Origin: Salinicola acroporae
GTDB taxonomy: Bacteria > Pseudomonadota > Gammaproteobacteria > Pseudomonadales > Halomonadaceae
NCBI RefSeq assembly: GCF_003206615.1
Contig: NZ_PZJW01000005.1
Span: 1 to 64,000, forward strand
Reading direction: 5' to 3'
Length of the DNA stretch: 64,000 bases
The translations under genes were made by a program, and so were the position numbers. Below are positions 40,586 to 64,000 of this stretch, in pieces. Within the stretch, counting starts at the first letter, position 1; every line of letters starts with the position of its first letter. Below the pieces are notes generated by a model. It searched no databases. It had not been told where the DNA came from and saw only the letters and a program-made list of their open reading frames with translations.

Positions 40586-40710
40586 CGTAACGCTCCTGGT
40601 CCGCATTCTTGTTGTTGTTGGTCATATGACATTGTTCATCAGAAGCGTTATCGGCCGCCAGGGGCGCGACTGTATCTCGCTCTTCGGGGATCGCACACGG
40701 TATCTCGATT

Positions 40711-42939: not shown

Positions 42940-43212
42940 GTTGACTCCTATCCGCATCAATATCGAGCCGTCGAGGGCTTGTCGCCAGACATCATGCTAT
43001 CCACGCGAGGCCAGAACAACGCTTCGACTCTTTGGTCCAAAGGTCGAAGCTGCTCTATCTTCAATGGAGACGTTGCCTCGACGGGCGCGCTCGGCACGGA
43101 GGTCTGATCGGCCTCAGCCGCCAGACGCCGCTGTCATCGATTCCGCCATCATTTTCCACACCTCGCTCGGAACGCTTACGCAGGGCCAGCGAAATCAAGC
43201 AAGGAGAGAGAA

Positions 43213-43977: not shown

Positions 43978-44029
43978 CCAGGGGGCCATGTCGTCTCCGG
44001 TACGCTCCACGTTATGCAGGGAAACCGAC

Positions 44030-47836: not shown

Positions 47837-47872
47837 GAGCCACCTGCCGGCCGTAAAATATCGAGAGAGCGA

Positions 47873-49996
47873 TCAATCATCCGATGCCTCCTCTTCGATC
47901 AGTTCGAACAGCGAGAGACTACGCGACTTGACCCGGTAGCCACTCTCCATGGGACAGCGAACGTCCCCGGCGGCTGGATCGAAGGTTTCGACGCGTCTCA
48001 GCCACTCGCTCCCCCCCGGGACGTCCGGCAGCACGAAATCGACATCCTGGTCGGAGGCATTGAGTGCCAGAAATACCGTAACGTCGGACCCGAAGCGGCA
48101 GATACCCGTAGGTTGGGCATGCCCGTTGAGGACGACGCCAATCGCCTTGGCCTCCTCGTCGTGCCAATGGTCCACCGTCATCTCCTCCGCGCCCGGGGTG
48201 AGCCACGCGACGTCCTTGATGCCCAGGTTTTCATCCAGCTTGCCGGTCATGAAACGCCCGCGTTCCAGAATGGGATACTGGCGCCGCAGCCGGATCAGTT
48301 GGCGAGTGAACGCCAGCAGACCACGGCCCTCGTCGGACAGGTTCCAGTCGACCCAGCCGATGTTCCCATCCTGACAGTAGGCGTTGTTGTTACCGCCCTG
48401 CGTGCGGCCGAACTCGTCCCCGGCCAGCAACATCGGCGTGCCCTGGGACAGCATCAGCGTGGCGAGCAGGTTGCGCATCTGGCGCATGCGCAGTTCGCGG
48501 ATGCCGGCATCGTCGGTCTCCCCCTCGACGCCATGGTTCCAGGAAACGTTATCGTCATGGCCATCCTTGTTGTCTTCGCCATTGGCCTCGTTGTGCTTGT
48601 TGTTGTAGCTCACCAGGTCACGGAGCGTGAATCCGTCGTGGGCGGTAATGAAGTTGATCGACGAGAACGCCTTGCGCCCGCGGTGGTTGAACAGATCGGC
48701 CGAGGCGGTCAGGCGGTTGGCAAAGGCAGGCAGTCGACCCTCGTCTCCCCGCCAGAACGCCCTCATGTCGTCGCGAAAACGGTCGTTCCATTCCGCCCAA
48801 CCGGGCGGGAACTTGCCGACCTGATAGCCCCCCGGACCGCAGTCCCAGGGTTCGGCGATCAGTTTGCACTGGGACAGCAGCGGATCCTGGCGACAGGAGT
48901 CGAGGAACCCGCCGCCCTCGTCGAAGCCATCGGCCTCGCGCCCGAGAATCGTGGCCAGGTCGAAACGGAAGCCGTCGACACGCATCTCGTCGGCCCAGTA
49001 GCGCAGCGAGTCCGTCACCATCTGCAGGACCCGGGGATGGGAGAGGTTCAACGTGTTGCCGGTGCCGGTGTCGTTGATGTAGAAGCGCGGCTCTTCCGGC
49101 ATCAGGCGATAGTAGGAAGCGTTGTCGATGCCCTTGAACGACAGCGTCGGCCCCATCTCGTTACCTTCCGCCGTGTGGTTGTAGACCACGTCCAGCAGCA
49201 CCTCGATGCCGGCAGCGTGGTAGCGCGCCACCATCTGCTTGAACTCGCTGACGGTCTCGGTCGACATGTAGTTCGGGTGCGGCACGAAAAACGCCAGGGT
49301 GTTGTAGCCCCAGTAGTTGTGCAGGCCCTTCTCCTGCAGGTGCCGGTCGTCGGCAAAGGCGTGAATCGGCATCAATTCGAGCGAGGAGACGCCCAGATCG
49401 ACGAGATAGTCGATCACTTCCGGCACGGCTAGCCCCGAGAACGTACCACGCAGCGCTTCCGGTACCGACGGGTGGCGCATGGTATAACCGCGAACATGCG
49501 TCTCGTAGATGACGGTGTCGCTCCACGGCACCCGGATCTCGGTGGATCGCCCCCAGGTGAACGCGGGATCGATGACGCGACAGCGAGGCATGAACGGCGC
49601 ACTGTCACGCTCGTCGAAGCTGAGATCGCCATCCTCGTGGCCGATGGTGTAGCCATAGAGGGCATCGTCCCAGATCAACTCGCCGACCAGTTGCTTGGCA
49701 TAGGGGTCGATCAGCAGCTTGTGATGATTGAAACGATGGCCGGATTCCGGATCATAGGGGCCGTGTACCCGATAGCCATAGAGCTGGCCTGGACGGGCAT
49801 CCGGCAGGTAGCCGTGCCAGATCTCGTCGGTGTACTCCGGCAGCACGACCCGCTCCAGCTCTTCCTGTCCGGATTCATCGAAGAGGCAGAGCTCGACTCG
49901 AGTCGCATTGGCCGAAAACAGCGAGAAGTTGACGCCGAGCCCATCCCATGTCGCCCCTAACGGGTAGGGAAGCCCCTCCCGAATCCGAGACTGCAT
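47873..49996 (-). CDS. glgX: Glycogen debranching enzyme
   Basis: A 707-residue isoamylase-type GH13 enzyme removing short branches from glycogen. CBM48 at the N-terminus (GLGVNFSLFSANATRV), then VVYNHTAEG, FRFDLATILG (nucleophile Asp), LIAEPWDCGPGGYQVG (acid Glu) and FITAHDGFTLRDLVSYN. The start at 49996 gives the canonical SRIREGLPYPLGATWDG and has AGGAGG 8 nt upstream, with a nearby weak GTTC/GAAC pair around the Shine-Dalgarno; the frame extends back to 50059. The DUF2934 gene is 125 nt upstream. Confidence 0.93.
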   Translation of the reverse strand: MQSRIREGLPYPLGATWDGLGVNFSLFSANATRVELCLFDESGQEELERVVLPEYTDEIWHGYLPDARPGQLYGYRVHGPYDPESGHRFNHHKLLIDPYAKQLVGELIWDDALYGYTIGHEDGDLSFDERDSAPFMPRCRVIDPAFTWGRSTEIRVPWSDTVIYETHVRGYTMRHPSVPEALRGTFSGLAVPEVIDYLVDLGVSSLELMPIHAFADDRHLQEKGLHNYWGYNTLAFFVPHPNYMSTETVSEFKQMVARYHAAGIEVLLDVVYNHTAEGNEMGPTLSFKGIDNASYYRLMPEEPRFYINDTGTGNTLNLSHPRVLQMVTDSLRYWADEMRVDGFRFDLATILGREADGFDEGGGFLDSCRQDPLLSQCKLIAEPWDCGPGGYQVGKFPPGWAEWNDRFRDDMRAFWRGDEGRLPAFANRLTASADLFNHRGRKAFSSINFITAHDGFTLRDLVSYNNKHNEANGEDNKDGHDDNVSWNHGVEGETDDAGIRELRMRQMRNLLATLMLSQGTPMLLAGDEFGRTQGGNNNAYCQDGNIGWVDWNLSDEGRGLLAFTRQLIRLRRQYPILERGRFMTGKLDENLGIKDVAWLTPGAEEMTVDHWHDEEAKAIGVVLNGHAQPTGICRFGSDVTVFLALNASDQDVDFVLPDVPGGSEWLRRVETFDPAAGDVRCPMESGYRVKSRSLSLFELIEEEASDD

Positions 49997-50121
49997 GGTT
50001 CCTGCCTCCTGAACGACCTGCCCCATCGTTCCATCCCGTCCCCATCGCATATCGGTCATCGACTACCCTCCGGGCGAGCCAGGTTCATCCCTGTCACCCT
50101 GTCATACCCAGTGTGGGTCGG

Positions 50122-50589
50122 TTATTCGCTCTTGTCGTCGTTCGTCCCGCGGGGCTTGCGCGGCTTGGCGGCCGTTTTCCTGCTGCTGCCCTCGGTGGCC
50201 TTGGCCGGCCCCCGTTTGCGCGCCGGCGAGGCGCTCTCGTCGCCGCTCGCCGCCTTGCGCCGCAGTGGAGCCCGGGGTCGGGGCTGACTCGGCGGTGCCT
50301 CGATTCCGGTATCCTCTTCCTTGCGCGCCTCGGTCTCTGGATCGTCCAGCGGCAGACGCGGCTCGTCTATACCCAGTTCGTCAGGCTCGGCGGGCGGATC
50401 CTCGCCCTCCAGCGGCGAGGGCTCGTCGGACACCGCACGCCACTCCTGCTCTTCCTCACGGGCGTTCTCGGCTTCGACGATACGTTCGGCCATTTCCCAG
50501 TGGCGCGCCTCCTGACCGTCGGGCCGTCCCTCCGACTCCCATATGCGATAAGCCAGCATCCGTATACGTTGTTCACGACCGGTCATCAT
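50122..50589 (-). CDS. DUF2934-like protein with basic tail
   Basis: A 155-residue protein. The N-terminal RIRMLAYRIWESEGRPDGQE ARHWEMAE block matches the small DUF2934 domain. An acidic, Pro-rich centre follows, then a Lys/Arg/Ala/Pro tail (about 105-155) resembling bacterial histone-H1-like tails, with KRGPAKA and KPRKPRG. AAGGAG lies upstream. Pseudomonas carries a comparable gene between treY and glgX (PA2161, recalled), so conservation of position suggests a real part in the pathway. Function unknown. It lies 107 nt after treY and 125 nt before glgX. Confidence 0.7.
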   Translation of the reverse strand: MMTGREQRIRMLAYRIWESEGRPDGQEARHWEMAERIVEAENAREEEQEWRAVSDEPSPLEGEDPPAEPDELGIDEPRLPLDDPETEARKEEDTGIEAPPSQPRPRAPLRRKAASGDESASPARKRGPAKATEGSSRKTAAKPRKPRGTNDDKSE

Positions 50590-50696
50590 GATGCGCTCCT
50601 TTCTGTTTGCGTGGCTCGAAGGGGCATCCCTGCCCCATCGGATTCGTTCGACACCAGCGCCGACAACACCAGCGCCTCACTCTCAAGATAGCGGGT

Positions 50697-53399
50697 TCAA
50701 GACGCCCACACCCAAACCCCGCAGGGAAAATCCGACAAATGCCGATGCAGCGGCAGTTCCGCTTCGGCTGCTACCGGCGCCGGCGTCAACCAGCCCTGAC
50801 CGACACCTTTCAGGTTCAATGCTTCAAGCGACAGCGCTGTGTCCGACCACTGGAGACGCCCCTCGAGGGTCTCGTCCATCAGCGCCGAAGCGAGCCGGCT
50901 GACGACCACCAGCAAGGTCATGCCTTGTGCTCTGCGTGCAAAGGCAATGACGCGGTCGGCGTGGGTCCCCGTCGCCTGCAGTGGCAGATATTCCCCGCCA
51001 TCGAAAAGTGAGGGGTGGTCACGGCGCAAATTCAACAACCGCTGCAAGATGGCCTGCTTGACGGCGCCGTCCCGCCAGTGACGCCAGGCCGCCACCGGCG
51101 TTTCGGCGTGATCCAGGGCCTCCCGGCGCGCCACCATGTGGACGGGGCGACGATTGTCGGGATCGACCAGGGAAAGGTCCCAGAAATCGGTGCCTTGATA
51201 GAGATCGGGAACGCCCGGTGAGCAGAGTCTGAGAACCGTCTGCGCCAGGCCATTGACCGCGCCGGGCATGTCGAGCACCGTCGCTGCCGAGGCCAGCTCG
51301 CGGGTCAGCGCATCGCCGGTCAACGCACGCCGTATGGCATCCTCGCCGGCCTGTTCGTAGCGCTCGTCAGGGGCCAGCCAGTGACTCGCCAGCTTGGCCT
51401 CTCGCATCGCCTTGCGCTGCCAGGCGACGAGACGATCGGCGTACTCATGCAGTGCCTCCCGCTCGCGGGAAGCGGACTCTTCGCTCCGCGCCTGCGCTGG
51501 CGTCAACTCCAGTGGCCATGCGGCCAGCAGCAGTTGGAGCATCATCAGACGATCCCCGCCGCTGGGTGCGGCGTGACTGTCATAAAGACGCGAGTCCCGG
51601 GCCCAGGCGCGCAGCTTGGGGGCCAGCATGTCGCCCCATTCGCTCAATGCCGCCAAGCGCCCACGGACGTCCTCGCCACGTTTGTGATCGTGTGTCGCGG
51701 TGGTCAGCATGGCATGGGGGAATGTCGCCAGGCGCTGCCGGTTCGCCTGATGAAAGTGCGGGACCGGATAGGCGAAGTGAGCGCCCTCGCAGCCAACGTC
51801 GTTACGCGACAGCAGCACTGCCGAGCGATAGCCGGCAGTATCCTCGACGGCCTTCGCCGCGAGTGGCGATGTCAGTTGTTGGAAGCGGGTGATCGCGCTC
51901 AAGCGCAACTCGCGCTCAGGCTCGTCGAACGCGTCGGGTGCCTCGCCACCGAGCCAGTCATCCAGTAGCGGCAGCCACGAGGCGTCGGCGGCGGACAACC
52001 GCGACCGCGCCACCTGCATGGCATGCTCGAACGCGCCGATATCCACCTCGGGACGACCGTTGCGATCGGTATAGCTGCGATAGACCGGATAGCCGATCGC
52101 CAGCGCCGCCACCACACGTCGAATCGCGGGCAGGCTGAATTCGCGGGTGGCGGGACTAGCGCCGGCCAGGGCCCGCATCGCCCTGACGCAACGCTCGAAT
52201 TCGGCAGTCAGCGGCCCGTGCAGCATTTCCTGACGCGCGATCTCGACCTCGGCGGCGAAATCCGCGCTGCGACCGCTGACCTCCCGCCATAGCCGAGTCA
52301 ACGGCTCGCGACCTGCCGGGTCGTGCTGGATACCCGAGACGAGATCGAGAAATTCGTAGCCGGTGGTGCCGTCAACGCCCCAGTCGGTGTGGAGGCGTTC
52401 GCCCTCACCCAGGATCTTCTCGACATAGATCGGCAATCGCTGGCTCCCCACGCCCTGCCGCTCCGAGATCGCATCGAGACGACCGCGCAGCCGCAGCGCA
52501 TAGCCACGAGGGTCGGCCAGGCCATCGATATGGTCGATACGCAGTCCGTCGATCCAGCCGCGCTCCACCAGTGCCAGGAGATAGGCGTGAGAGAGATCGA
52601 ATACGCTCTCGTCTTCGACCCGCACCCCCGCCAACTCGGTGATGTCGAAAAATCGGCGCCAGTTGAGCGCATCGTTGGCGGTGCGCCAGTGGAGAAGCCG
52701 ATAGGCTTGACGCTCCAGTAGTGCGTGCAGCCGCGAGCAGCCTGCCTGAGTCCTGGCATCATGGTCCGCGATGACCGCCGCGACCAGCGGGTGGTCCTCG
52801 GCCAGTTCCTCCCTCGGCGGGAGGGCGGCTGCCTGACGATCGTCCGTTGATGAAGTCGCCAGCAGCGCCTCGATCTGGTTGGGGTCGATCGGAAACCGGT
52901 GCTCGTGATAGGCGATGAAAAAGACGCCGCGGGTCGCGTCCCAGGCCAGCACCAGCTCGCCACTTTCCAGTACCCTCAGGTAGCGATCCCCCAGAAAAGG
53001 CAGCAGAATCTTGCCGTCGGCACCGGGCTGTTCCCAGTCGATGTCGAAACAGCGGGCGTAGTCACTGGCACGCCCCAGAGCCAGCACGTCCTGCCACCAG
53101 GGATTCTCTGCCCCCACCGCCAGATGATTGGGCACGATATCGGCCACGATCCCCATCTCCGCGGCATGCAGCCCCTCGACCAGACGGGCAAGGCCGGCCT
53201 CGCCACCCAGTTCCGGGTCGATCCGGGTCGGATCGACGCCGTCGTAGCCGTGGGTCGATCCTCTTCTCGAGGCCAGGAAGGGCGATAGATAGAAATGGCT
53301 GACACCCAGCGCGGCGTAGTAATCCACCTGCCGCAGGGCATCATTAAAGGTGAAGTCGGCGTGCAGTTGCAATCTTACGGTGGCGCGAACGGCTCTCAT
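50697..53399 (-). CDS. treY: Maltooligosyl trehalose synthase
   Basis: A 900-residue GH13 mutase turning the reducing end of a maltodextrin into a trehalose unit. ADIVPNHLAVG, GLRIDHIDGLADP (Asp), VEKILGEGE (Glu) and TATHDHKRGED (Asp) are all present. The N-terminal RLQLHADFTFNDALRQV is the usual TreY opening. Its ATG overlaps the malQ stop by 4 nt (ATGA). TreZ, encoded two genes upstream, then releases trehalose. Together they make trehalose directly from storage glucan, without UDP-glucose. Confidence 0.93.
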   Translation of the reverse strand: MRAVRATVRLQLHADFTFNDALRQVDYYAALGVSHFYLSPFLASRRGSTHGYDGVDPTRIDPELGGEAGLARLVEGLHAAEMGIVADIVPNHLAVGAENPWWQDVLALGRASDYARCFDIDWEQPGADGKILLPFLGDRYLRVLESGELVLAWDATRGVFFIAYHEHRFPIDPNQIEALLATSSTDDRQAAALPPREELAEDHPLVAAVIADHDARTQAGCSRLHALLERQAYRLLHWRTANDALNWRRFFDITELAGVRVEDESVFDLSHAYLLALVERGWIDGLRIDHIDGLADPRGYALRLRGRLDAISERQGVGSQRLPIYVEKILGEGERLHTDWGVDGTTGYEFLDLVSGIQHDPAGREPLTRLWREVSGRSADFAAEVEIARQEMLHGPLTAEFERCVRAMRALAGASPATREFSLPAIRRVVAALAIGYPVYRSYTDRNGRPEVDIGAFEHAMQVARSRLSAADASWLPLLDDWLGGEAPDAFDEPERELRLSAITRFQQLTSPLAAKAVEDTAGYRSAVLLSRNDVGCEGAHFAYPVPHFHQANRQRLATFPHAMLTTATHDHKRGEDVRGRLAALSEWGDMLAPKLRAWARDSRLYDSHAAPSGGDRLMMLQLLLAAWPLELTPAQARSEESASREREALHEYADRLVAWQRKAMREAKLASHWLAPDERYEQAGEDAIRRALTGDALTRELASAATVLDMPGAVNGLAQTVLRLCSPGVPDLYQGTDFWDLSLVDPDNRRPVHMVARREALDHAETPVAAWRHWRDGAVKQAILQRLLNLRRDHPSLFDGGEYLPLQATGTHADRVIAFARRAQGMTLLVVVSRLASALMDETLEGRLQWSDTALSLEALNLKGVGQGWLTPAPVAAEAELPLHRHLSDFPCGVWVWAS

Positions 53400-55528
53400 G
53401 ATCGACCTCCCCGGCGGATGCGGTCGATGCGCGTCAGCCGGTGCCGCACGGTCCGGGTCTCGAGCGCCTGGGGCGCCGGGACCGGTAGCCGGCGTCGCCA
53501 GTTGGGATGTTCATCGAGGGTGCCCGGCAAATTGGCCTGCTCCAGCAAGCCCAGCAGATCCTCCAGCGGTAACAGCGCCAACGGCGTCGGTGTTCCCGCC
53601 ACGTGCGCCAGCGCCGCATCGACGACGTCGTTGACCTCCACGGCATCGGAGTCCAGTGACTGGCGGGTGTCGGCGCCAAGACCGCAGACAGCGGCCAGCC
53701 GTCGTCGCTCCTCGCCACGCGCCTGCCTGAGCTTGGGCAGCGTCTCGTCCTCGGCGAGCAGTCCCAGGCGATCGCGCCACCGCAGATCGTTCTCGAGCCA
53801 CCAGCCCGCCACCGTGGGGAGATCGTGGGTGCTGGTCGTCGCCATCGTGCCCTCGCGCCATGCACCGGTCGGGAGGAAGGCGTCGCCCTCGCGCTCGAAC
53901 CACATCACGCTCATGCCCAACACGCCGCGGTCCGCCAGCGCGTCGCGCAGCCCGTCCTCCACCGTCCCCAGATCCTCGCCGATGACGATGGCCCGGTGAC
54001 GCCAGGATTCCAGCGAGACCAGGCGCAGGAGGTCGTCCAGCGGGTAGCGTAGGTAGGCCCCCTGCTGGGACGATTCCCCTTCCGGGACCAGCCACAGCCG
54101 CGATAGCCCCAACACGTGATCGATGCGCAGGCCGCCGGCGTGGGCCAAGCTGGCGCGCAGCATGGCGAGGAAGCCACGATATCCGGAATCGACCAGCCCC
54201 TCCGGCGAGAATGCCGCCACCCCCCAGTTCTGGCCATGGGCATTGAACGCATCCGGCGGCGAGCCGACGCTCAGGCCCCGATGGAGCTCGGCGGGATCGC
54301 TCCAGGCCTGGCTACCAGCGGGATCGACACCCACCGCCAGGTCGGCGATCAATCCCACCGCCATACCGGCGCGCCGCGCGTTTTGCTGCACCCGATCGAG
54401 CCCGGCTGCCACCAGCCACTGCAGAAACACGGCGAAGGTGACCGCCTCCCGGTGCTGCTCGGCGAAGGCCTCGACCGCTTCGCTACCCGGGTCACGCCAC
54501 TCCTCGGGCCACTGGCGCCAATCGGTTTCGTCGGCATGCGCCTGCAGCACTTCGAAGCGGCAGTGGCGCTCCAGCCTCTCCCCGCCGTCGCGCCGGAAGG
54601 CGACCAGTCGAGAGCGCCACTCCAGCGCGCGCTCGTCATGCTCGACATACTGGAATAGCCGCTCCAGCATCGCCAGCTTGAGACGGGCGCTGGCGGGCCA
54701 GTCGATCAGCGCCAGCGACTCCTGCCGCGTCATGCTCTCGACGAAGGGCGCTCTTGCCCGATCCAGTATTTCTTCGTCGAACAGGCCCTCCGGCGAGGCG
54801 TGCCAGACGTTGTAAAAGAGCCGGCTGGAGGGCGAATAGGGGCTAAATCGTTCGGGGTGCGCCGCGAACAGCGCATGCACGGGGCTGATGGCAACGGCAT
54901 CCGCGCCGGCCTGGGCCACCGCGCCACACAGTTCATCGAGCGCGGCCAGGTCCCCAATCCCGGCGTCGCCATCACGCCGAAGCCCGTAGAGTTGCGCGGC
55001 AACTCCCCAGTAGCTGGGACGCGCCTCTCCCCGCTCCTCAGCGATATCGGAGAGTGCGAAGCAACGCGCTGGCGTCACTGCCAGCAGACGGGTGACGCTG
55101 TCGTCGCCCCGGCCGGTGAGGAAGCTGACACGGTGATAGCCGATTTCGTGAACGGCAGGCAGATGGCCACCGGCATCGAGATGACCGTCCAGCGTTTCGC
55201 CGCTCTCGAGCCGGACGACGAAGCCGCATCCGCCCGCCTCGGCGACCGGAACCGGGAACGGCCGTTGCTGGTCGGCGATCAGCAATGGCGGTAACTGATC
55301 GAAAGCGACCGGATGGTGGCGGGCTCGCCAGCGAGCCAGGCTGGCGGCGACCGCCTGGTCATCGGCGGCCGGCCAGCCGAGGCATTCGAGCATGCGGCGC
55401 TGGCGCGCCTCGGAGAGCGACTGGCGCCGATCGTCACTACCGGTCCACTCGACCAGCAGCCCGACCGACTCGGCGAGCTGTTGCAACGCATCTGAACGTT
55501 CGATCAAAGGGTGGCCCTGGTCCGTCAT
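53396..55528 (-). CDS. malQ: 4-alpha-glucanotransferase (amylomaltase)
   Basis: A 710-residue GH77 enzyme that transfers glucan chains between maltodextrins, so short products become TreY substrates again. GGLRIDHVLGLSRLW (nucleophile Asp), VIGEDLGTV (acid Glu) and THDLPTVAGWW are present, and PSYWGVAAQLYGLRRDGDAG fits the family substrate region. The length is that of the longer MalQ type, with an extra N-terminal domain. Both ends overlap neighbours by 4 nt (ATGA), with treZ upstream and treY downstream. Confidence 0.93.
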   Translation of the reverse strand: MTDQGHPLIERSDALQQLAESVGLLVEWTGSDDRRQSLSEARQRRMLECLGWPAADDQAVAASLARWRARHHPVAFDQLPPLLIADQQRPFPVPVAEAGGCGFVVRLESGETLDGHLDAGGHLPAVHEIGYHRVSFLTGRGDDSVTRLLAVTPARCFALSDIAEERGEARPSYWGVAAQLYGLRRDGDAGIGDLAALDELCGAVAQAGADAVAISPVHALFAAHPERFSPYSPSSRLFYNVWHASPEGLFDEEILDRARAPFVESMTRQESLALIDWPASARLKLAMLERLFQYVEHDERALEWRSRLVAFRRDGGERLERHCRFEVLQAHADETDWRQWPEEWRDPGSEAVEAFAEQHREAVTFAVFLQWLVAAGLDRVQQNARRAGMAVGLIADLAVGVDPAGSQAWSDPAELHRGLSVGSPPDAFNAHGQNWGVAAFSPEGLVDSGYRGFLAMLRASLAHAGGLRIDHVLGLSRLWLVPEGESSQQGAYLRYPLDDLLRLVSLESWRHRAIVIGEDLGTVEDGLRDALADRGVLGMSVMWFEREGDAFLPTGAWREGTMATTSTHDLPTVAGWWLENDLRWRDRLGLLAEDETLPKLRQARGEERRRLAAVCGLGADTRQSLDSDAVEVNDVVDAALAHVAGTPTPLALLPLEDLLGLLEQANLPGTLDEHPNWRRRLPVPAPQALETRTVRHRLTRIDRIRRGGRS

Positions 55529-57378
55529 GAATGGGGCGCTCCCGCCACGTCATCGGCTACCCTCTTGGCATCCGACGGGCCAAGCCACACCGCGCTCGCG
55601 TGGGCCGGCAATTGGCCCTCGCCGAGAGCGTCGGTGATACCTGGTCGCGAGCAGGCCAGCGGGTCGCCACGAAGACCCAAGCCAACCGGACGTGACGAGA
55701 GGTTGATCGCGGCGGTCAGGACTTGACCGTCGCCCATCCGCCAGACGGCCTCCACGGCCTTGTCGCCGAGAACCCGAGCGCCGAGAGCATGGCAGCCCAC
55801 CAGGCAGGGGACGATGAAGCGGTGACGCAACGCCAGCCATGTAGCGAAACGCGCCCGATAGTCGAGGTGGTCGGGCATGGCCGCTTCCTGATCGTCGAGC
55901 TGTGAAGCCGCGAAAGTCGCCGCCGCGTTGGGATCGGGAATCCGCTCGCGCTGTGCCGGGTCCTCGAACGCGCTGAAGTCCGCAAATTCACGACGACGGC
56001 CCTCACGCACCGCATCGGCCAGGTCATCTCGATGATCGGTAAAGAAGAGAAACGGTCTGCTCGAACCCCACTCCTCGCCCATGAACAACAACGGGATGGC
56101 GGGAGAGAGCAGCAACAGGAGCGTCGCCGCATCGAGCGCGTCGGGCTCGCTCAATCGTGATAGACGCTCGCCGAGGGCACGATTGCCGATCTGATCGTGA
56201 TTCTGGAGGAAGTTGACGAACGCCGTGGGCGGCAGGTGCCCGCTGGGCTCTCCCCGAGCCTCACCCTTGCGCGAGCGCTGGCCCTGATAGACGAACCCTT
56301 CAGCCATCGCCGTCGCCAACTTCGCCGTGGCGTTCTCGACGAAATCGGCGTAATAGCCTTCGTGCTCACCAGTCAGCAGCACATGCATCACGTTATGCCA
56401 GTCATCGGCCCACTGGGCGTCGAACAGACCCGGTGCCAGCAGGCTAGCCTGGTTGTTCTCGTTCTCCAGGATCAGATGGCAATGGCGGGCCGGACCGATG
56501 TGCTCGCGCAGGGTCTGCCCCAGCTCGACCAGGAAGTCCCGTTCGCTGATGGCGTGGACGGCGTCAAACCGGAGTCCGTCGAAACGGTACTCGAGCAGCC
56601 ACATCAGCGCATTATCGATGAAGAAGCGCCGCACCTGCGGACGACGGAAGTCGATGGCGCCGCCCCAAGGTGTCTGCAGGTCGTCACGAAAGAAAGGCTT
56701 GGCGTAGTGAGGCAGGAAGTTGCCGTCCGGCCCGAAGTGGTTATAGACCACATCGAGAAAGATCATCAGGCCGTGCCCATGAACCTCATCAACCAGCGCT
56801 TTCAGTGTTTCCGGCGAGCCGTAGTAGGACGCGACAGCATAGGGCTGGACGCCGTCGTAGCCCCAATTGCGTTGCCCGGGACACTCGGCGACCGGCATCA
56901 GCTCGATGGCGGTGATGCCCAACTCGACCAGTGCCGGCAGGCGCCGACGCAGGCCGTCGATACCGCCACAGGCGCCCAGATGGACCTCGTAGATCACCGT
57001 CTCTTCCCAAGGGCGGCCCATCCAGTCGTCATGGCGCCAGCCGTGATCGCGACCGACCAGCAGGGACGCGCCGTCGACGCCACCCCGCAGCGCTCTCGAG
57101 GCCGGATCGGGCACCGGCATCCCGTCCTCGTCATCCCCGACGAAGACGCGATAACGGTAGGCCACTTGCGGGGGACACTCGAGCTCGAGTTCGAACCCGC
57201 CCTCGGCAACCGGCTCCATCGGCTGCGGTGCCAGGCCCTCGCACTCCAGCATCACCCGCCGGGCGCTGGGCGCCCACAGCCGAAAGCAAGCGCGGCCATC
57301 GGCCATCGGCGTCGCGCCGTAGAAAGGCGCCCAGGGTGTTCTCGCCTCATCACGGGGCCCCTCGGTTCTGGCGCTCAT
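55525..57378 (-). CDS. treZ: Malto-oligosyltrehalose trehalohydrolase
   Basis: A 617-residue GH13 enzyme that cuts free trehalose from maltooligosyl trehalose. FRLWAPSARRVML begins an N-terminal CBM48-like domain. Catalytic motifs are DVVYNHFGPDGNF, DGLRFDAVHAI (Asp), HLILENENN (Glu) and QNHDQIGNR (Asp). The start overlaps the upstream pseudo-GlgB gene by 4 nt (ATGA), and the stop overlaps malQ likewise. It acts on the product of treY, so both must be made in step, consistent with the tight coupling. Confidence 0.93.
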   Translation of the reverse strand: MSARTEGPRDEARTPWAPFYGATPMADGRACFRLWAPSARRVMLECEGLAPQPMEPVAEGGFELELECPPQVAYRYRVFVGDDEDGMPVPDPASRALRGGVDGASLLVGRDHGWRHDDWMGRPWEETVIYEVHLGACGGIDGLRRRLPALVELGITAIELMPVAECPGQRNWGYDGVQPYAVASYYGSPETLKALVDEVHGHGLMIFLDVVYNHFGPDGNFLPHYAKPFFRDDLQTPWGGAIDFRRPQVRRFFIDNALMWLLEYRFDGLRFDAVHAISERDFLVELGQTLREHIGPARHCHLILENENNQASLLAPGLFDAQWADDWHNVMHVLLTGEHEGYYADFVENATAKLATAMAEGFVYQGQRSRKGEARGEPSGHLPPTAFVNFLQNHDQIGNRALGERLSRLSEPDALDAATLLLLLSPAIPLLFMGEEWGSSRPFLFFTDHRDDLADAVREGRRREFADFSAFEDPAQRERIPDPNAAATFAASQLDDQEAAMPDHLDYRARFATWLALRHRFIVPCLVGCHALGARVLGDKAVEAVWRMGDGQVLTAAINLSSRPVGLGLRGDPLACSRPGITDALGEGQLPAHASAVWLGPSDAKRVADDVAGAPHS

Positions 57379-58724
57379 GGCGCCTCCTCGAACCAGGTCT
57401 CGTGGCGCAGATACAACGCAGCCATGGGCGGTACCGTCACGGCAAGCGACTGGGCATGGCCGTGGCTGGGAATCGCTTCGGTCGTCGCGCCATGGCCATT
57501 ACCCACGTTGCTCCCTCCGTAGAAGACGCTGTCGCTGTTGAATATCTCCCGCCACCGGCCAGCACCGGTAACGCCAAACCGATAGCGGTAATGCACGCAC
57601 GCCTGGAAATTGCAGAGGCAGATCATGCTGGCGTGACCGCTCTCGGTATGGCGGGCGAATATGACAACGCTATTGTCGCTGTCATCGTCGACCAGCCACT
57701 CGAATCCCAGCGACTCGTCGGCACGGATCTGCAGCGCCGGCTCGTTGACGTACAGCCGGTTGAGATCGGCGACGAGACGCAGCATCCCTGCGTGCCGGGT
57801 TTCGAACAGGAGCGGCCAATGCAGCGGCGCCTCCCACGGGCCGGCCAGCACCTGGCCCAGCTCCACGCCCATCGCCAACTGCTTGTCACCGGGCAGCGCC
57901 CACATCAACGCCAGACATGCCCGGAACGCCGCGAAACGCTGCCAGTCATCTCCATGGACTGTCTGCCGCCACTGGCCGAGCGCCGAGCCTTCATCCGGCA
58001 CCTGCTCCAGCAACCCACGCGAGCTCTCGCGCGGAGTCAACGCCTCAACCCAGTCGCGGTGTCGTCGATGCCGTCCGGTGGGCCCCAGAGATAGATAGTC
58101 GGCGCTGGCAACCCGCCATCGCGGTCGACGATGCAACGTCAGCGCCGTCCCGACGGTGTCGCTGCCGAACAACCGACAGCCGCCATCGGCGTCGCGGCCG
58201 CGCTCGTCGATACCATCGAGATGGCAGCGCTCACACCATTCGAGAAACTCGGCCTCGGACATCGGCAACGACGCAGGACGCTGAACCACGACGCCCACGC
58301 CGGCGACATGACAGGTCTCGACGAACTGGCAAACCACCGCGTAAGGCACCGCGATCAGCCCCTCGTCGAGCACGACATGGGTAAATCCCAGGTCGGCGAC
58401 ATAGGGCACCAATTCCTGGGCGAGATGATTCCAGCTCAAGGGCGGAGGGAAGCGGGAGGCGTACCAATCAGCCCCACACAGTCGGTAGAGCGACAACGGC
58501 ATGTCGCCGCCATGACGCCCCGCTCTCGATCGCATCCAGTCTCCGTCGTCCCAGGACCACGCGTCCTCACCCTCACCATCACCGACAGAGCCTCCGGCCC
58601 TTGGCGATGGGGGGGGCGGCGTCCCGTCCTGATCGTTCATGCGAGCGCCTACGCCCCCGAGGCTCGCTCGTGGCATCGAGTTCATGCCAGCGACGGCCCC
58701 GTTGGTTCCTGCGGAGTACTTCAT
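57375..58724 (-). CDS. GlgB-like pseudoenzyme in the trehalose operon
   Basis: A 449-residue protein related to branching enzyme but without an active site. It lacks the N-terminal domains; residues 1-50 are Gly/Pro-rich. DGDWMRSRAGRHG and LVPYVADLGFTHVVLDE match the start of the GlgB barrel, and [20 protein letters not shown] and FYGGSNVGNGHGA match its late barrel and C-terminal beta domain. Compared with glgB in this window, LDWVPGHFP has become VVQRPASLP, and the VDAV, AEEST and ISHDE motifs are absent. The frame is open, codon use is normal, and both ends overlap neighbours by ATGA, so it is kept under selection, not decaying. A glucan-binding or scaffold role is inference. Confidence 0.82.
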   Translation of the reverse strand: MKYSAGTNGAVAGMNSMPRASLGGVGARMNDQDGTPPPPSPRAGGSVGDGEGEDAWSWDDGDWMRSRAGRHGGDMPLSLYRLCGADWYASRFPPPLSWNHLAQELVPYVADLGFTHVVLDEGLIAVPYAVVCQFVETCHVAGVGVVVQRPASLPMSEAEFLEWCERCHLDGIDERGRDADGGCRLFGSDTVGTALTLHRRPRWRVASADYLSLGPTGRHRRHRDWVEALTPRESSRGLLEQVPDEGSALGQWRQTVHGDDWQRFAAFRACLALMWALPGDKQLAMGVELGQVLAGPWEAPLHWPLLFETRHAGMLRLVADLNRLYVNEPALQIRADESLGFEWLVDDDSDNSVVIFARHTESGHASMICLCNFQACVHYRYRFGVTGAGRWREIFNSDSVFYGGSNVGNGHGATTEAIPSHGHAQSLAVTVPPMAALYLRHETWFEEAP

Positions 58725-60328
58725 CGGCTAGGCACCTGCTCGTTGGAGTGGACGACCGTTTCGGTCAGCAGGTCGGCGTAGAGCCGTCGATAGGGAATCA
58801 CGGCCTGTCGCCAGTGCAGACGCCCGGCCATCGCCGCGCGCCGCATGGCGTAGAACAGGTCGGTGGCCCGGAAAAGATCGAAGGCACGTAGCACCGTGGC
58901 GCGATAGCTATCCAGGCTCATGTCGTCGAATAGCAAGCCGTTGATCCCGTCCTGGATCGTATCCGCCAGACCTCCGGTTCGATGCGCGATCGGCAACGAA
59001 CCGAAGCGTTGGGCATAGAGCTGGCTCAGACCGCAAGGCTCGAAACGGGACGGCATCAGCAGGAAATCGCTGCCCGCATAGATCTGACGCGCCTCGCCTT
59101 CGTCGAATCCGATGTTGACGCCCACCTGGCCGGGATAGCGCGACGCCATCTCCACCAGCGACTGCTCGATGGCGTACTCGCCGCGACCGATCACCACCAG
59201 TTGCCCGCCGGCCCGCACGATCGAGTCCGCCACCTGTATGGTGAGATCCAGCCCCTTCTGCGCCACCAGCCGCGAGACGACGGCGAACAGCGGGCCGCTG
59301 CTCGGCTCCAGCCCGAACATGCGGCGCACGCGCTGAATGTTGGCGCGCTTGCCATGCCAGTCGTTGATGCCGAAATTCGGCGCCAGATGAGGATCGGTAC
59401 GAGGATCCCAGCGGTCATCGATGCCGTTGAGCAGGCCGCTGAGCCGACCCTCCAGGGCCCGTTTCTTGAGCAGCCCCTCGAGCCCGCATCCCAGGGCGGG
59501 CGTGGTGATCTCCTGCGCGTAATTGCTGCTGACCGTGGTCACGTGGGAGGCGTACGAGAGTGCCGCTTTCATGAACGAGATCTGGCCGTGAAACTCGACG
59601 CCATCAATGTGGAAGGCGGATGCCGGGATGCCCAGCGCAGGCATGCGCTCCAGCGGAAACACCCCTTGATAGGCAAGATTGTGAATGGTGTAGACCGAAG
59701 GTACATAGCGCTTGCCAAGCCAGCGGACATAGCCCGCCGTCAAACCAGTCGCCCAGTCGTTGAGATGGAGTAGTTCCACCTGCCAGTCGAGCAGCGTCGC
59801 GTCATTGACGATCTCGGCCGCCGCCATCGCCAGCCGGGCGAAACGAATATCGTTGTCCGGCCAGCCCACCCCCAGCTCGTCGCCGTAGGCATTGCCGACC
59901 CGATCGTAGAGTTCGGGGCACAGCACGACGTAGATGATCAAGCCGTCTTCACAGAGCAGACGCCCGATCTCGCAGGCCGGCAAGTCGTGCCGGGCGGGAA
60001 GACTGGCCACGTGAGCGATGGGATGCCCGGCGGTCAGGAGTTGGCGATAGCCGGGCATCAGCACCCGCACGTCATAGTTGGGCTTCAGCGCCCGGGGCAG
60101 TGCCGCGGACACGTCGCCCAGACCGCCCGCCTTGATGAAATCGGCGATCTCGGTGGTGACGAACAGTACACGGCGATTACGGATCGGCGGAGAGGGAAGC
60201 GGGCGTGACAATGCCCCCGCCGGGGCCCTGGACGAGGTTCGACCAGACAGCGACGCGAGCCAAAGGGGGTCCTCCCCATATCTCGCAGCCGTATGACTTT
60301 GCCTCCCACGAACTGCGGCCTGCGTCAT
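58721..60328 (-). CDS. glgA: Glycogen synthase (ADP-glucose type)
   Basis: A 535-residue GT5 glycosyltransferase extending alpha-1,4-glucan from ADP-glucose. IADFIKAGGLGDVSAALP is the KxGGL donor-binding motif; LLHLNDWATGL, YTIHNLAYQG and RLVAQKGLDL follow; SRFEPCGLSQLYAQRFGSLP holds the two catalytic-region glutamates' neighbourhood and HRTGGLADTI closes it. The N-terminus has about 50 extra residues before the fold. I chose ATG 60328 because AGGGAGG lies 7 nt upstream; this Shine-Dalgarno sits in a perfect hairpin (60327-60347). First gene of the operon; no glgC is nearby. Confidence 0.92.
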   Translation of the reverse strand: MTQAAVRGRQSHTAARYGEDPLWLASLSGRTSSRAPAGALSRPLPSPPIRNRRVLFVTTEIADFIKAGGLGDVSAALPRALKPNYDVRVLMPGYRQLLTAGHPIAHVASLPARHDLPACEIGRLLCEDGLIIYVVLCPELYDRVGNAYGDELGVGWPDNDIRFARLAMAAAEIVNDATLLDWQVELLHLNDWATGLTAGYVRWLGKRYVPSVYTIHNLAYQGVFPLERMPALGIPASAFHIDGVEFHGQISFMKAALSYASHVTTVSSNYAQEITTPALGCGLEGLLKKRALEGRLSGLLNGIDDRWDPRTDPHLAPNFGINDWHGKRANIQRVRRMFGLEPSSGPLFAVVSRLVAQKGLDLTIQVADSIVRAGGQLVVIGRGEYAIEQSLVEMASRYPGQVGVNIGFDEGEARQIYAGSDFLLMPSRFEPCGLSQLYAQRFGSLPIAHRTGGLADTIQDGINGLLFDDMSLDSYRATVLRAFDLFRATDLFYAMRRAAMAGRLHWRQAVIPYRRLYADLLTETVVHSNEQVPSR

Positions 60329-60347
60329 GTTCAGCCTCCCTGAACAT
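60327..60347 (-). promoter_or_regulatory. Hairpin enclosing the glgA Shine-Dalgarno (candidate CsrA/RsmA site)
   Basis: On the minus strand ATGTTCAG, loop GGAGG, CTGAACAT: a perfect 8-bp stem whose 5-nt loop is the Shine-Dalgarno and whose last two bases belong to the glgA start codon. CAGGGA, spanning loop and stem, fits the CANGGA core of CsrA/RsmA sites, which lie in hairpin loops at ribosome binding sites. CsrA control of glycogen genes is known in E. coli. Confidence 0.5.
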
Positions 60348-60672
60348 TGAGTCCACCAGTCAAGTTTAACCAGCGTCGACACATCATCCTGCGCCTCGGG
60401 AGCCCGTGACGGCCATAACCGACGTTAATAGAAAAGACCGACGGTTGGTCACTCGTGCCGAAATGCCGGGTAATGATTCGCGGGCGTGATCGGGTGGCGA
60501 GCGTCGCTTGGTGACGCTGCCCCCTCTTACAGATATATGCCACCGGCCGGATAGCGTCAAAGCCTGTTTGGCTCGCCGCCGTAGCCAGCGAAGCGACGGC
60601 CATTAAAAAAGGCAACCTCCGTGGGAGATTGCCTTTGAAAAGCCGATTTCTCGGCAACATCGACACAGCTTG
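60329..60672. other. Intergenic 344 bp between the RND pump and glgA
   Basis: Holds the RND terminator (60608-60636), the glgA leader and presumably the operon promoter. I could not pick -35/-10 boxes with confidence, and no short gene is supported. Confidence 0.5.
60608..60636 (-). terminator. Intrinsic terminator of the RND operon
   Basis: AAAGGCAA (60608-60615) pairs with TTGCCTTT (60629-60636), the inner stem continuing as CTCC/GGAG after one mismatch. On the minus strand it is followed by TTTTTT. It lies 37-65 nt past the RND stop. Confidence 0.85.
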
Positions 60673-63600
60673 CTAGTGACTTTCGTCCGGCATCGACTGG
60701 CGATCGTTGCGTCGCTTGCCGCGGCCTAGTTTCGACTGCAACCCATGGGTGACCTTCATGATCAATACGTAGGTCGCCGGCACGAACACCGTGGCCAGCA
60801 AGGTGATGGAGATCATGCCTCCCACGACCGGCGTTCCGATCTGGTTGCGGCTGGCCGCGCTGGCACCAGATGCCAACGCCAACGGCAGGGTGCCACCGAT
60901 AAAGGCCAGCGATGTCATCACGATGGGCCGGAATCGCTGGCGCGCCGCCACCTTGGCCGCGTCGACCACCGACAACCCGGCGTGCTTGCGCTGCTGCTCG
61001 GCGAATTCGACGATCAGGATGGCGTTCTTGGCGGCCAGGCCGACCACCACCAACAGCCCCACCTGCAGGTAGACACTCGTGCTCAACCCGGCCAGGTAAA
61101 CGGCCAGAATCGCACCGATGAACGCAAACGGGACGGCGGAGACGACGGCCAGCGGCAGGGTCCAGCTCTCGTACTGGGCCGCCAGGATCAGGAACATCAT
61201 GACCACGCCGAAGGAGAGCGCCAGTGTCGCCGCCGTGCCCACGTTGACCTGCTGGTAGGCCTCGCCGCTCCATCCCATCCCGTAATTGGAGCCTAACGTA
61301 TCGGTGACGACCTCCTGCATCGCCTGTACCGCCTGTCCGGAACTGTAGCCCGGTGCCGGCCCACCCGAGAACTGGGCGGCCGCATAGGTATTGTAACGCT
61401 GCAATACCGTGGGTGCCTTGTCGCGCGTGAGCGTGACCAGCTCGGAAAGCGGGATACGCTGGCCCTCGCCACCTCGCACGTAGACCTTGCTCAGGTCATC
61501 CGGGTTGCGGCGGAAGTCGTCTTCCGACTGCAGGTAAACCTGGAAGTTACGGCCCGAGCTGGTGAAGTAGTTGACGAACGAGCTGCCGAAGGTGCTCGCC
61601 ATGGTGGTGTTCAGGTCGGCAATATCGACCCCCAGGCTGCGCGCCTTCTCCGTGTCGACGTCAGCCTTGTAGGACGGCACATTGACATCGAGCGACGTGA
61701 ATACACCTGCGAGTTCCGGACGCTTGGCGGCGGCTTGCATCACCTTGCCGGCAGCCTCCGACAACTGCTGCGACGTGTCACCGCCGAAGGATTGCAGATA
61801 GCCGGTGAAGCCGCCGGTGGGCGACAGGCCCTGAATCGGGGGCAGGTTGAACGCCACGGTCTGCCCTCCCTGGATCTGGGCCCCGATCTGCATGATCTTC
61901 TGGGTCAACTGGTCGACGGTGATATCACGATCCTGCCAGGGTTTCATCGTCACGAAGACCGTGGCCTTGGCGGTATTGGGCGAACTCGACAGGATATCGA
62001 AGCCAGGTATGCCGGTGACGAAATTGATCCCGGGCACCTCGTCTCGCAGGCGCTGGCTAAGCTCCTGCACGTAGGCATCGGTTCGCGCCACCGAGGATCC
62101 TGCGGGCAGATTGACGGCAGCCAGCGCGACGCCCTGATCCTCGGAAGGGAGCAGCGCCGCCGGCAACTGGGCAAAGATCAGCCAGGAAACGATGCCCGCG
62201 GCAGCCAAACCGACGATCACCAGCCACAGCTGGTGGATGAGGAAGTTGGTGATCGCCATGAAGAAATCGGTGATCTTGTCGAAGATCTTGTTGAACCAGT
62301 CGAACGGCTTGCGGATGGCGCGGATGAAACCGGACTGTTGGAGGCGATCCTGGTTCTTCAGGAAGATCGCACTCATGGCCGGGGTGAACGACAGTGCCAC
62401 GATGGCCGAAATCGCTACCGAGATCGCGATGGTGATCGCGAACTGCTGGTACATCTGCCCGGTCAGGCCGCTCATGAAACCGACCGGCACGAACACCGCG
62501 GCCATGATGAAGGCGGTCGCAATGACCGCGCCCGACACCTCTTTCATTGCCTCGAGCGCAGCACTGAACGGGGTCGCCTCCTCATCCTCTTCCATGATGC
62601 GTTCGACGTTCTCGATGACCACGATGGCGTCATCCACCACGATTCCGATTGCCAGTATCATGCCGAACAGCGACAACAGGTTGATCGAGAAATCGAGCAG
62701 GTACATCCCGGCAAACGTCCCCACCACCGAAATCGGCACCACCGACATCGCCACCAGAGTGGAGCGCCAGCTCTGCAGGAACAGGAACACGATCACCGCC
62801 ACGAGCAATAAGGCCTCGATGAAGGTGTGCTCTACCGACTGCACGGAGGCGTCGATGAACAGCGTCGTGTCGTAGGGGATATCGAAATCCAGTCCCGGCG
62901 GGAAACGCGTCTTGAGGTCCGCCATCGACTGCTTGACTTCGTTGGCCACGTCCAGCGCGTTGGCCCCCGGCTGCAAGTAGATGGCGATCGGCGCGATCGG
63001 TTTGTTGTTGACGTAGGCCTGAATGCCGTAGCTGTTTTTGCCCAATTCGATACGCGCCACATCGCTCAAACGCAGCGAAGAACCGTCCGGATTGGTTCGC
63101 AGCACGATCTCGCGAAACTGGTCGACGCTCTCGTAACGGCCCTGAGTGGTAATGGTATAGGTGTAGGGCGTGGGGTCGCTCTGCGGCTCGGCTCCGAGCT
63201 TGCCGCCCGCCACCACCGCGTTCTGCGCCTGTATCGCCGAGGAGACTTCGGCCGGGGTCAGATCGTACTGGGCCAGCTTGTCCGGGTTGAGCCAGACACG
63301 CATCGCGAACTCCTGGCTACCCAGCACTTCCGCCTGCCCCACGCCAGGAAGGCGTGAGAGCTCATCGGTCACGTTGATGTTGGCGTAGTTGGTCAGATAC
63401 AGCGAGTCGTAGGCATCGGAGTCCGAGGTAATGCCCACGAACAGGAGGATGCTCGACGACCGCTGCTCGACCGTGACCCCCTGGGACTGCACCTCGCTGG
63501 GAAGCTGCGACAGCGCTCGCTGGACCCGGTTATTGACGTTGATCGTTGCCGTCTGCGGGTCGGTGCCAATATTGAAATAGACGCTCATGGACATCTGACC

Positions 63601-63861
63601 GCTATCCGAACTGCTCGAGGTCAGATAGATCATGTCCTGAGTGCCGTTGATCTCCTGGGCGATCACCGAGGCGACCGTGTCGGAGACCGTCTGGGCGCTG
63701 GCACCGGGATAGGTCGCGGAGACGCTGATCGTTGGCGGTACGACAGGCGGATACTGCTCGATGGGCAGCGTCCGCATCGCCATCAACCCGATCAGCGTGA
63801 TGATGACCGAGAGGACGGTAGCGAAGATCGGGCGTCTGATGAAAACGCTGGAAAAGTTCAT
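60673..63861 (-). CDS. RND multidrug efflux permease (MexB/AcrB, HAE1)
   Basis: A 1,062-residue inner-membrane RND pump. FIRRPIFATVLSVIITLIG is helix 1; the proton relay is intact, with AIGIVVDDAIVVIENVER in helix 4 and GLAAKNAILIVEF in helix 10. Two large periplasmic loops carry the pore and funnel domains. It exports drugs, bile-like compounds or solvents by proton antiport. The ATG at 63861 overlaps the adaptor stop by 1 nt (TGATG). No outer-membrane channel gene follows, and an intrinsic terminator does, so a separate TolC/OprM partner is probably used. Confidence 0.93.
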   Translation of the reverse strand: MNFSSVFIRRPIFATVLSVIITLIGLMAMRTLPIEQYPPVVPPTISVSATYPGASAQTVSDTVASVIAQEINGTQDMIYLTSSSSDSGQMSMSVYFNIGTDPQTATINVNNRVQRALSQLPSEVQSQGVTVEQRSSSILLFVGITSDSDAYDSLYLTNYANINVTDELSRLPGVGQAEVLGSQEFAMRVWLNPDKLAQYDLTPAEVSSAIQAQNAVVAGGKLGAEPQSDPTPYTYTITTQGRYESVDQFREIVLRTNPDGSSLRLSDVARIELGKNSYGIQAYVNNKPIAPIAIYLQPGANALDVANEVKQSMADLKTRFPPGLDFDIPYDTTLFIDASVQSVEHTFIEALLLVAVIVFLFLQSWRSTLVAMSVVPISVVGTFAGMYLLDFSINLLSLFGMILAIGIVVDDAIVVIENVERIMEEDEEATPFSAALEAMKEVSGAVIATAFIMAAVFVPVGFMSGLTGQMYQQFAITIAISVAISAIVALSFTPAMSAIFLKNQDRLQQSGFIRAIRKPFDWFNKIFDKITDFFMAITNFLIHQLWLVIVGLAAAGIVSWLIFAQLPAALLPSEDQGVALAAVNLPAGSSVARTDAYVQELSQRLRDEVPGINFVTGIPGFDILSSSPNTAKATVFVTMKPWQDRDITVDQLTQKIMQIGAQIQGGQTVAFNLPPIQGLSPTGGFTGYLQSFGGDTSQQLSEAAGKVMQAAAKRPELAGVFTSLDVNVPSYKADVDTEKARSLGVDIADLNTTMASTFGSSFVNYFTSSGRNFQVYLQSEDDFRRNPDDLSKVYVRGGEGQRIPLSELVTLTRDKAPTVLQRYNTYAAAQFSGGPAPGYSSGQAVQAMQEVVTDTLGSNYGMGWSGEAYQQVNVGTAATLALSFGVVMMFLILAAQYESWTLPLAVVSAVPFAFIGAILAVYLAGLSTSVYLQVGLLVVVGLAAKNAILIVEFAEQQRKHAGLSVVDAAKVAARQRFRPIVMTSLAFIGGTLPLALASGASAASRNQIGTPVVGGMISITLLATVFVPATYVLIMKVTHGLQSKLGRGKRRNDRQSMPDESH

Positions 63862-64000
63862 CAATTGGCCCCGTTCTGTCCGTCTTTCGCCTCTTGCGCA
63901 TCGAGGTGAGCGCCCTCGACACCCTCACCACCCTGGGCATCGGCCTCCTGGGAAGGATTCTCGCCGGCGTTGTTTTGCGGTTGCGGCACTTGGCCGTTGA
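63861..64000 (-). CDS. RND periplasmic adaptor subunit, C-terminal end (cut by window edge)
   Basis: Only the last 45 or so residues are visible, a hydrophilic Gln/Asn/Gly/Ala-rich tail ending DGQNGAN and a TGA at 63861-63863. The 1-nt overlap with the permease start and the usual adaptor-permease gene order identify it as a MexA/AcrA-type membrane-fusion protein. The body of the gene is outside the window, so this rests on context. Confidence 0.7.
   Translation of the reverse strand, partial: NGQVPQPQNNAGENPSQEADAQGGEGVEGAHLDAQEAKDGQNGAN

Follow-up and report, generated by a model that had tools for sequence, protein, structure and literature searches.

The 64,000-nucleotide stretch of Salinicola acroporae contig NZ_PZJW01000005.1 analysed here (the window) contains on its minus strand, at 57375–58724, an intact and frameshift-free open reading frame (ORF) of 449 amino acids that encodes a dead branching-enzyme-like protein, here called X. 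This protein is very probably both non-catalytic and functional, and its residue losses together with purifying selection make it most likely a pseudoenzyme; on sequence evidence it may equally well be, or not be, a partner of the route from GlgA to TreY/TreZ that would handle glucan without acting on it. The minus-strand gene order is glgA, X, treZ, malQ, treY, DUF2934, glgX, glgB, and X is joined to its neighbours by ATGA overlaps on both sides, one formed by the glgA stop and the X start (58721–58724) and the other by the X stop and the treZ start (57375–57378). An earlier note on this DNA had described both overlaps and the unbroken frame, and it was right on each point, glgA ending at 58721 and treZ starting at 57378; the X/treZ overlap is identical in all 27 dead copies examined. 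Among the enzymes of this operon, GlgA makes a linear alpha-glucan, which TreY and TreZ, with MalQ and GlgX, convert to trehalose.

The loss from X of the four GH13 motifs, also claimed in the earlier note, is borne out by alignment with the window's own GlgB. Motif I changes from DWVPGHF to QRPA and a gap, motif II from LRVDAV to IDERGR, and motifs III and IV from IAEEST (motif III), through 17 protein letters not shown, to VPDEGS-AL, a poorly aligned region in which the Asp-Glu pair of motif IV is still aligned and the His is gone. Much of the catalytic loss is deletion, since from the linker onward X has 394 amino acids against 508 in the window GlgB, about 110 barrel residues being deleted, and both N-terminal GlgB domains (GlgB_N and CBM48) are absent. 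Pfam recognizes GlgB_N, CBM48, the catalytic domain and Alpha-amylase_C in the window GlgB; its sole match in X is Alpha-amylase_C (residues 343–442, E 3e-20), with neither the catalytic domain nor CBM48 found in the scan, and the NCBIfam GlgB models fall far under cut-off (best 238 versus 1270 bits). The C-terminal domain is thus kept, as had been stated, and "glucan-facing" was the earlier note's own interpretation of it. The same scan finds Alpha-amylase_C in 27 of 27 dead copies, and the catalytic domain and CBM48 in none of these nor in a further copy from genome G618 (see below); all five intact GlgBs scanned as a control carry both.

When residues are mapped to E. coli GlgB by alignment and counted over the 27 dead copies, His340 of motif I and His525 of motif IV (E. 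coli numbering) are found in none, Asp335 in 3 and Arg403 in 6, the stretches concerned being poorly aligned. The catalytic triad, which we take to be the usual GH13 Asp nucleophile, Glu acid/base and Asp stabiliser, is never complete in any of the 27 rows inspected. Positions 62–443 of a profile built from the dead copies can nevertheless be aligned to E. coli GlgB (E 7e-91), so most of the barrel survives as remnants, and X and GlgB share common descent. A degenerate barrel in which some acidic residues remain could in principle have gained another catalytic activity, on alpha-glucan or on trehalose intermediates; we consider this highly improbable, as no old catalytic position is invariant and only the N-terminal tail evolves faster than the old core.

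With the X protein as query, 275 genomes of the family were searched; TreZ was detected in 77 of these, and the region upstream of treZ was taken from every one of the 77, the window included. The slot between glgA and treZ holds a dead X in 29, a four-motif GlgB in 16, and is empty in 32 (no ORF of at least 80 amino acids between glgA and treZ matching any query). The dead copies fall in five genera (17 in Salinicola, 8 in g15, 2 in g8, and 1 each in g19 and g21), the intact ones in four others (10 in g10, 2 in g9, 3 in g11 and 1 in g18), and the empty slots in g8 (14) and g23 (18); one dead copy (G145) is truncated by a contig end and one genome of the empty class (G266) is a poor assembly. 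The intact slot GlgBs are full length (734–784 amino acids as longest ORFs) with all four motifs, and 6 of the 8 examined have the ATGA overlap with treZ, one of the eight (G005) being without TreZ. X is present in 17 of 18 Salinicola genomes; the remaining one, G175, is without treZ, and with these queries shows no GlgB and a weak glgA-like match only, with no full glgA.

Outside the family, an additional dead copy of 543 amino acids lies likewise between glgA and treZ in G618, which belongs to another family of the same order, and this was the one dead copy among the matches listed in a profile search of an order-wide sample of 390 genomes. Two other short frames were rejected as dead copies, that of G363 (motifs II and IV kept, at a contig end) and that of G296 (motifs I and II kept, next to a stretch of N); each appears to be an ordinary GlgB cut short. 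A class-wide sample of 369 genomes gave no further short frame at an E cut of 1e-100. A plasmid search gave 703 records, all under 60% identity; among the ten matches listed, six lie in genes annotated glgB and the other four in unannotated sequence. Among the papers listed in searches of an open-licence library, none describes X in its title or the start of its abstract.

In a tree of 55 proteins the 27 dead copies are split off by one branch (support 100/99) and 20 ordinary GlgBs by another (100/98), with 8 intact slot GlgBs between them. A TreZ tree was made for 78 rows, namely the 77 genomes and G618, by a quick method with support from the Shimodaira-Hasegawa-like approximate likelihood ratio test (SH-aLRT) only; on it the three slot states need 4 changes, versus a mean of 35 with shuffled labels. 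The simplest reading is that an intact slot enzyme underwent one inactivation followed by about three losses. As the trees are unrooted, the direction of change, presumably from intact to dead, is judged from how implausible it is that four motifs were regained. X would then be the remnant of a separate branching enzyme that once occupied the glgA-treZ slot. Intact-motif orthologues were named in the earlier note as evidence that would count against it; they are found in 16 of the 77 slots, and we read them as ancestry, the dead copies being a clade of their own. That X is a decayed copy of the window GlgB was rejected, because the dead clade stands apart from the GlgB clade and the slot holds an intact GlgB in other genera; the earlier description of X as a dead branching-enzyme paralogue therefore holds in so far as X is non-catalytic and kept (17 of 18 Salinicola and four other genera), and fails if it is taken to mean decay from that gene. 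Independent inactivation in each genus is not needed, since the dead copies lie on one side of a branch and all are without the loop after GFTH; this single-clade grouping could still be misled by long branches.

Ratios of nonsynonymous to synonymous substitution (dN/dS) were calculated by the Nei-Gojobori method for nine within-genus Salinicola pairs, which share species and are non-independent; longest ORFs were used, poorly filled columns were dropped, and glgA is partial in five genomes. The pairwise values are 0.092–0.172 for X, 0.110–0.217 for treZ, 0.108–0.189 for malQ, 0.116–0.172 for treY, 0.055–0.096 for glgB, 0.043–0.072 for glgX and 0.006–0.072 for glgA, and the pooled whole-gene values are 0.161 (X), 0.185 (treZ), 0.165 (malQ), 0.162 (treY), 0.085 (glgB), 0.069 (glgA) and 0.060 (glgX). 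The elevated ratio that, according to the earlier note, would betray decay is not seen; X is similar to treZ, malQ and treY, and above glgA, glgX and glgB. Within X the pooled ratio is 0.396 in the variable N-terminal tail (residues 1–54, 58563–58724), 0.068 in the retained linker and first two barrel strands (55–120, 58365–58562), 0.156 in residues 121–150, 0.217 in the degenerate catalytic remnant with motifs II to IV (151–252, 57969–58274), 0.071 in a retained block GDDWQRF...DLNRLY (253–342, 57699–57968) and 0.063 in residues 343–443, which take in the Alpha-amylase_C beta domain (343–442, 57399–57698). Constraint on the C-terminal domain and on both ends of the former barrel is thus about as strong as on active GlgB, and it is weaker in the rest of X.

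These values bear on whether X is a decaying remnant, or a mere spacer that maintains translational coupling between glgA and treZ. Its lost active site, its large deletions and the 32 empty slots among 77 fit such a view, as does the copy in Salinicola G189, which has frame breaks; these may be sequencing or assembly errors, however, as that assembly is 93% complete and its treZ is under the family cut-off. Against it stand ratios of 0.06–0.07 in the retained blocks and the reading frame of X, which is open in 16 of 17 Salinicola copies and, apart from one copy cut by a contig end, in those examined from other genera, and glgA and treZ adjoin without X elsewhere; already disfavoured, this explanation is improbable. 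The relaxed selection, stops and frameshifts of a pseudogene are not what is found in Salinicola, where the pairwise range is 0.09–0.17. Neutral mutation simulated at three divergence levels left 0 of 500 frames open at each, a crude simulation that adds little.

What X keeps of the GlgB fold is similarly uneven. Taking columns conserved over 29 intact GlgBs, and counting a column as kept when it is the same in at least 24 of the 27 dead copies, 18 of 22 are kept in the C-terminal domain, 17 of 31 in the region of E. coli residues 537–620 and 9 of 16 in 234–291, and few or none in the regions between: 3 of 27 in 292–345, 2 of 36 in 346–412, 0 of 29 in 413–470 (around motif III), 5 of 25 in 470–523 and 0 of 11 at motif IV. 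Twelve glucan sites are listed for E. coli GlgB (PMC10254366, Table 1), and the marker tryptophans of sites I and VI are present in all 27 dead copies and that of site V in 24, which suggests that X may bind glucan. The markers of six others are already variable among ordinary GlgBs or unlike E. coli.

If X has a protein partner, which one is it? The earlier note offered GlgA, GlgB or TreZ, and of these GlgB is now disfavoured, since X is retained in a Salinicola clade whose GlgB belongs to a different lineage; GlgA or TreZ/TreY/MalQ appear to be the remaining candidates. The gene glgB lies directly after glgX in 12 of 17 Salinicola and 5.4–5.6 kb farther on in the other five (G178, G180, G184, G185 and G186; L076–L080), and glgE and an over-cut-off treS stand between glgX and the displaced glgB in both genomes tested (G184 and G178), an arrangement that is perhaps a block replacement. 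The GlgB of this clade is 67% identical to the window GlgB in four of the five (it is split in the fifth), versus 79–97% in other Salinicola; on the tree the GlgBs of G184 and G178 group with those of g15 and their X with the window X. It would be GlgB that was exchanged, and X stayed in these genomes with a similar dN/dS. We note that the split glgB is that of G186, where it is in two ORFs of 407 and 385 amino acids (L079 55–2484), either a break or an assembly error. Over 120 pairs, the distances of X correlate with those of treY (0.950), treZ (0.936), malQ (0.914), glgX (0.814), glgA (0.729) and glgB (0.568). X could, as a subunit, regulate the active GlgB of the same cell in the way ISA2 does ISA1, and all 29 family genomes with X do have another GlgB gene (the split one of G186 included), but two GlgBs of the displaced clade have been placed on the tree in another lineage with X retained, and the glgB correlation is the lowest of the six; this too is improbable. 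GlgC turned up in none of the 18 genomes tested, and GlgE and an over-cut-off TreS in 11 each; X is present in the window genome (G000) and three window-type Salinicola (G181, G176 and G182) without GlgE and without over-cut-off TreS. X occurs with either GlgB lineage and in some genomes without GlgE or TreS, and so follows the genes that lead from GlgA to trehalose, not GlgE or any one GlgB.

We propose that the ancestor of X was an active branching enzyme of GH13_9 whose gene already lay between glgA and treZ. Its catalytic part would have been lost once, probably after another GlgB could take over branching, both barrel ends and the C-terminal beta domain being preserved through the loss. 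X might then hold or organise GlgA-made chains for TreY/TreZ on the old surface glucan-contact faces of GlgB, and have its synthesis matched to that of GlgA and TreZ through translational coupling, as a non-catalytic subunit with an effect on trehalose flux. Several observations weigh against this proposal. The operon is maintained without X in the 32 empty-slot genomes, X evolves faster than glgA, glgX and glgB, and its distance correlations are confounded by operon linkage. The markers of glucan sites IV, VIII and XII, conserved in the family's ordinary GlgBs, are lost in the dead copies, and sites I, II and VII are given as conserved in Enterobacteria only (PMC10254366), so the site I tryptophan of X may be structural; indeed all the kept tryptophans, being conserved across GlgBs, may be. 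As for the loss of catalysis, the nucleophile Asp405 aligns in 1 of the 27 dead copies (G186) and the acid/base Glu458 in 2, and the third catalytic residue Asp526 is Asp in 13, the window copy included, and Glu in 6 more, making 19 acidic; all of these positions lie in poorly aligned stretches.

Some of the same evidence could be accommodated if X were an allosteric or assembly protein partner of GlgA or of TreZ/TreY with no glucan binding of its own, the retained blocks being an old fold turned into an interface. The fixed position of X between glgA and treZ, with its invariant treZ overlap, the constraint on the retained blocks (0.063–0.071, like the pooled 0.085 of active glgB), the distance correlation with treY and treZ, and a new near-invariant tryptophan (W252, just after old motif IV), which replaces Leu, Met or Ile of the GlgBs in 26 of 27 dead copies, are all as expected of such a protein. 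Operon genes share distances through linkage, however, and the tryptophans of the old glucan sites are retained too; we regard this alternative as rather unlikely, though the least so of the rivals.

A branching enzyme that selection retains in a trehalose operon after loss of its active site would show that binding to glucan, or to partner proteins, can be important independently of catalysis, as has been argued for plant ISA1/ISA2. Bacterial storage-glucan enzymes are usually read as one gene, one reaction. The intact, dead and empty states of the slot in related bacteria, with a clade that has a different GlgB, make a ready comparative test, and a branching-enzyme label on X in annotation would be wrong as to function.

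The neighbours of X in the window, all on the minus strand, are glgA (glycogen synthase, 553 amino acids, 58721–60382), treZ (maltooligosyltrehalose trehalohydrolase, 617 amino acids, 55525–57378), malQ (4-alpha-glucanotransferase, 710 amino acids, 53396–55528), treY (maltooligosyltrehalose synthase, 900 amino acids, 50697–53399), glgX (debranching enzyme, 728 amino acids, 47873–50059) and glgB (intact branching enzyme of 759 amino acids with the four motifs, CBM48 and GlgB_N, 45557–47836). Between treY and glgX lies a gene (50122–50589) for a 155-amino acid DUF2934 protein of unknown function, in keeping with the DUF2934 gene that the earlier note gives for the Pseudomonas operon. Elsewhere malQ and treY form a single open frame of 1675–1682 amino acids, in G147 (L054 4231–9279), G153 (L055 10715–15742) and G149 (L056 4304–9337); in G189 (L064 5223–13073) there is a 1498-amino acid malQ-treY frame, with a short treZ frame and X in two ORFs, all of which may stem from sequencing errors in that assembly. 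Promoter-like sites are at chance level (3 versus 2.2 expected), terminator-like sites a little over it (10 versus 6.3, standard deviation 2.7), and an Rfam search of window positions 44000–64000 gave no match. Beyond these genes the minus strand encodes a 1128-amino acid Amt-linked cyclic-di-GMP protein (37220–40606), in which an ammonium transporter domain is fused to PAS, GGDEF and EAL, and a 749-amino acid protein (40711–42960) that combines mechanosensitive channel domains with a long N-terminal region.

Compared with known proteins, X keeps the C-terminal domain and barrel ends of the GH13_9 1,4-alpha-glucan branching enzyme GlgB (E. coli, 4lpc/1m7x) but is without its catalytic motifs, without a GlgB_N or CBM48 match and about 110 residues shorter from the linker on. 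It has its position and the FNSDSxFY region in common with the intact slot GlgB of 16 genomes of the same family (e.g., L047 and L050), which differs in being full length with all four motifs. The P. aeruginosa glgA-treZ-malQ-treY-glgX operon has the same genes for trehalose from GlgA glucan, which is linear there, and no GlgB-like gene is listed in it, the listed glgB being with glgE-treS (PMC8084333); the earlier note had likewise placed no such gene in the Pseudomonas operon. The same source reports that long insoluble GlgA chains accumulate in a GlgE-pathway mutant with conversion blocked. A Salinicola genome paper (PMC5518125) notes that Chromohalobacter lacks treY/treZ and that otsAB offers a second route to trehalose, and X is unmentioned in its treY/treZ passages. 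In the Waddlia GlgA-GlgB fusion (PMC7935935) a branching part is tied to GlgA and was measured as non-functional, with another GlgB present; its authors blame the N-terminal GlgA part for the inactivity and suggest that the pathway is disappearing, whereas X is a separate gene, has lost its motifs and is under purifying selection. The closest analogue, in functional likeness only, may be the plant isoamylase ISA2, a GH13 paralogue without a functional catalytic site that is kept by selection and whose noncatalytic effects are proposed by the authors to act through glucan-binding sites (PMC12510319). ISA2 is paralogous to debranching enzymes and binds the active ISA1; X sits with GlgA and TreZ instead. 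By this analogy X is possibly, and we put this forward tentatively, a bacterial counterpart of ISA2 that lost catalysis once and has persisted in six or more genera as a subunit of the GlgA-TreY/TreZ trehalose route devoted to glucan handling, one that would set the hand-over of chains from the synthase to the trehalose-forming enzymes whatever GlgB is present.

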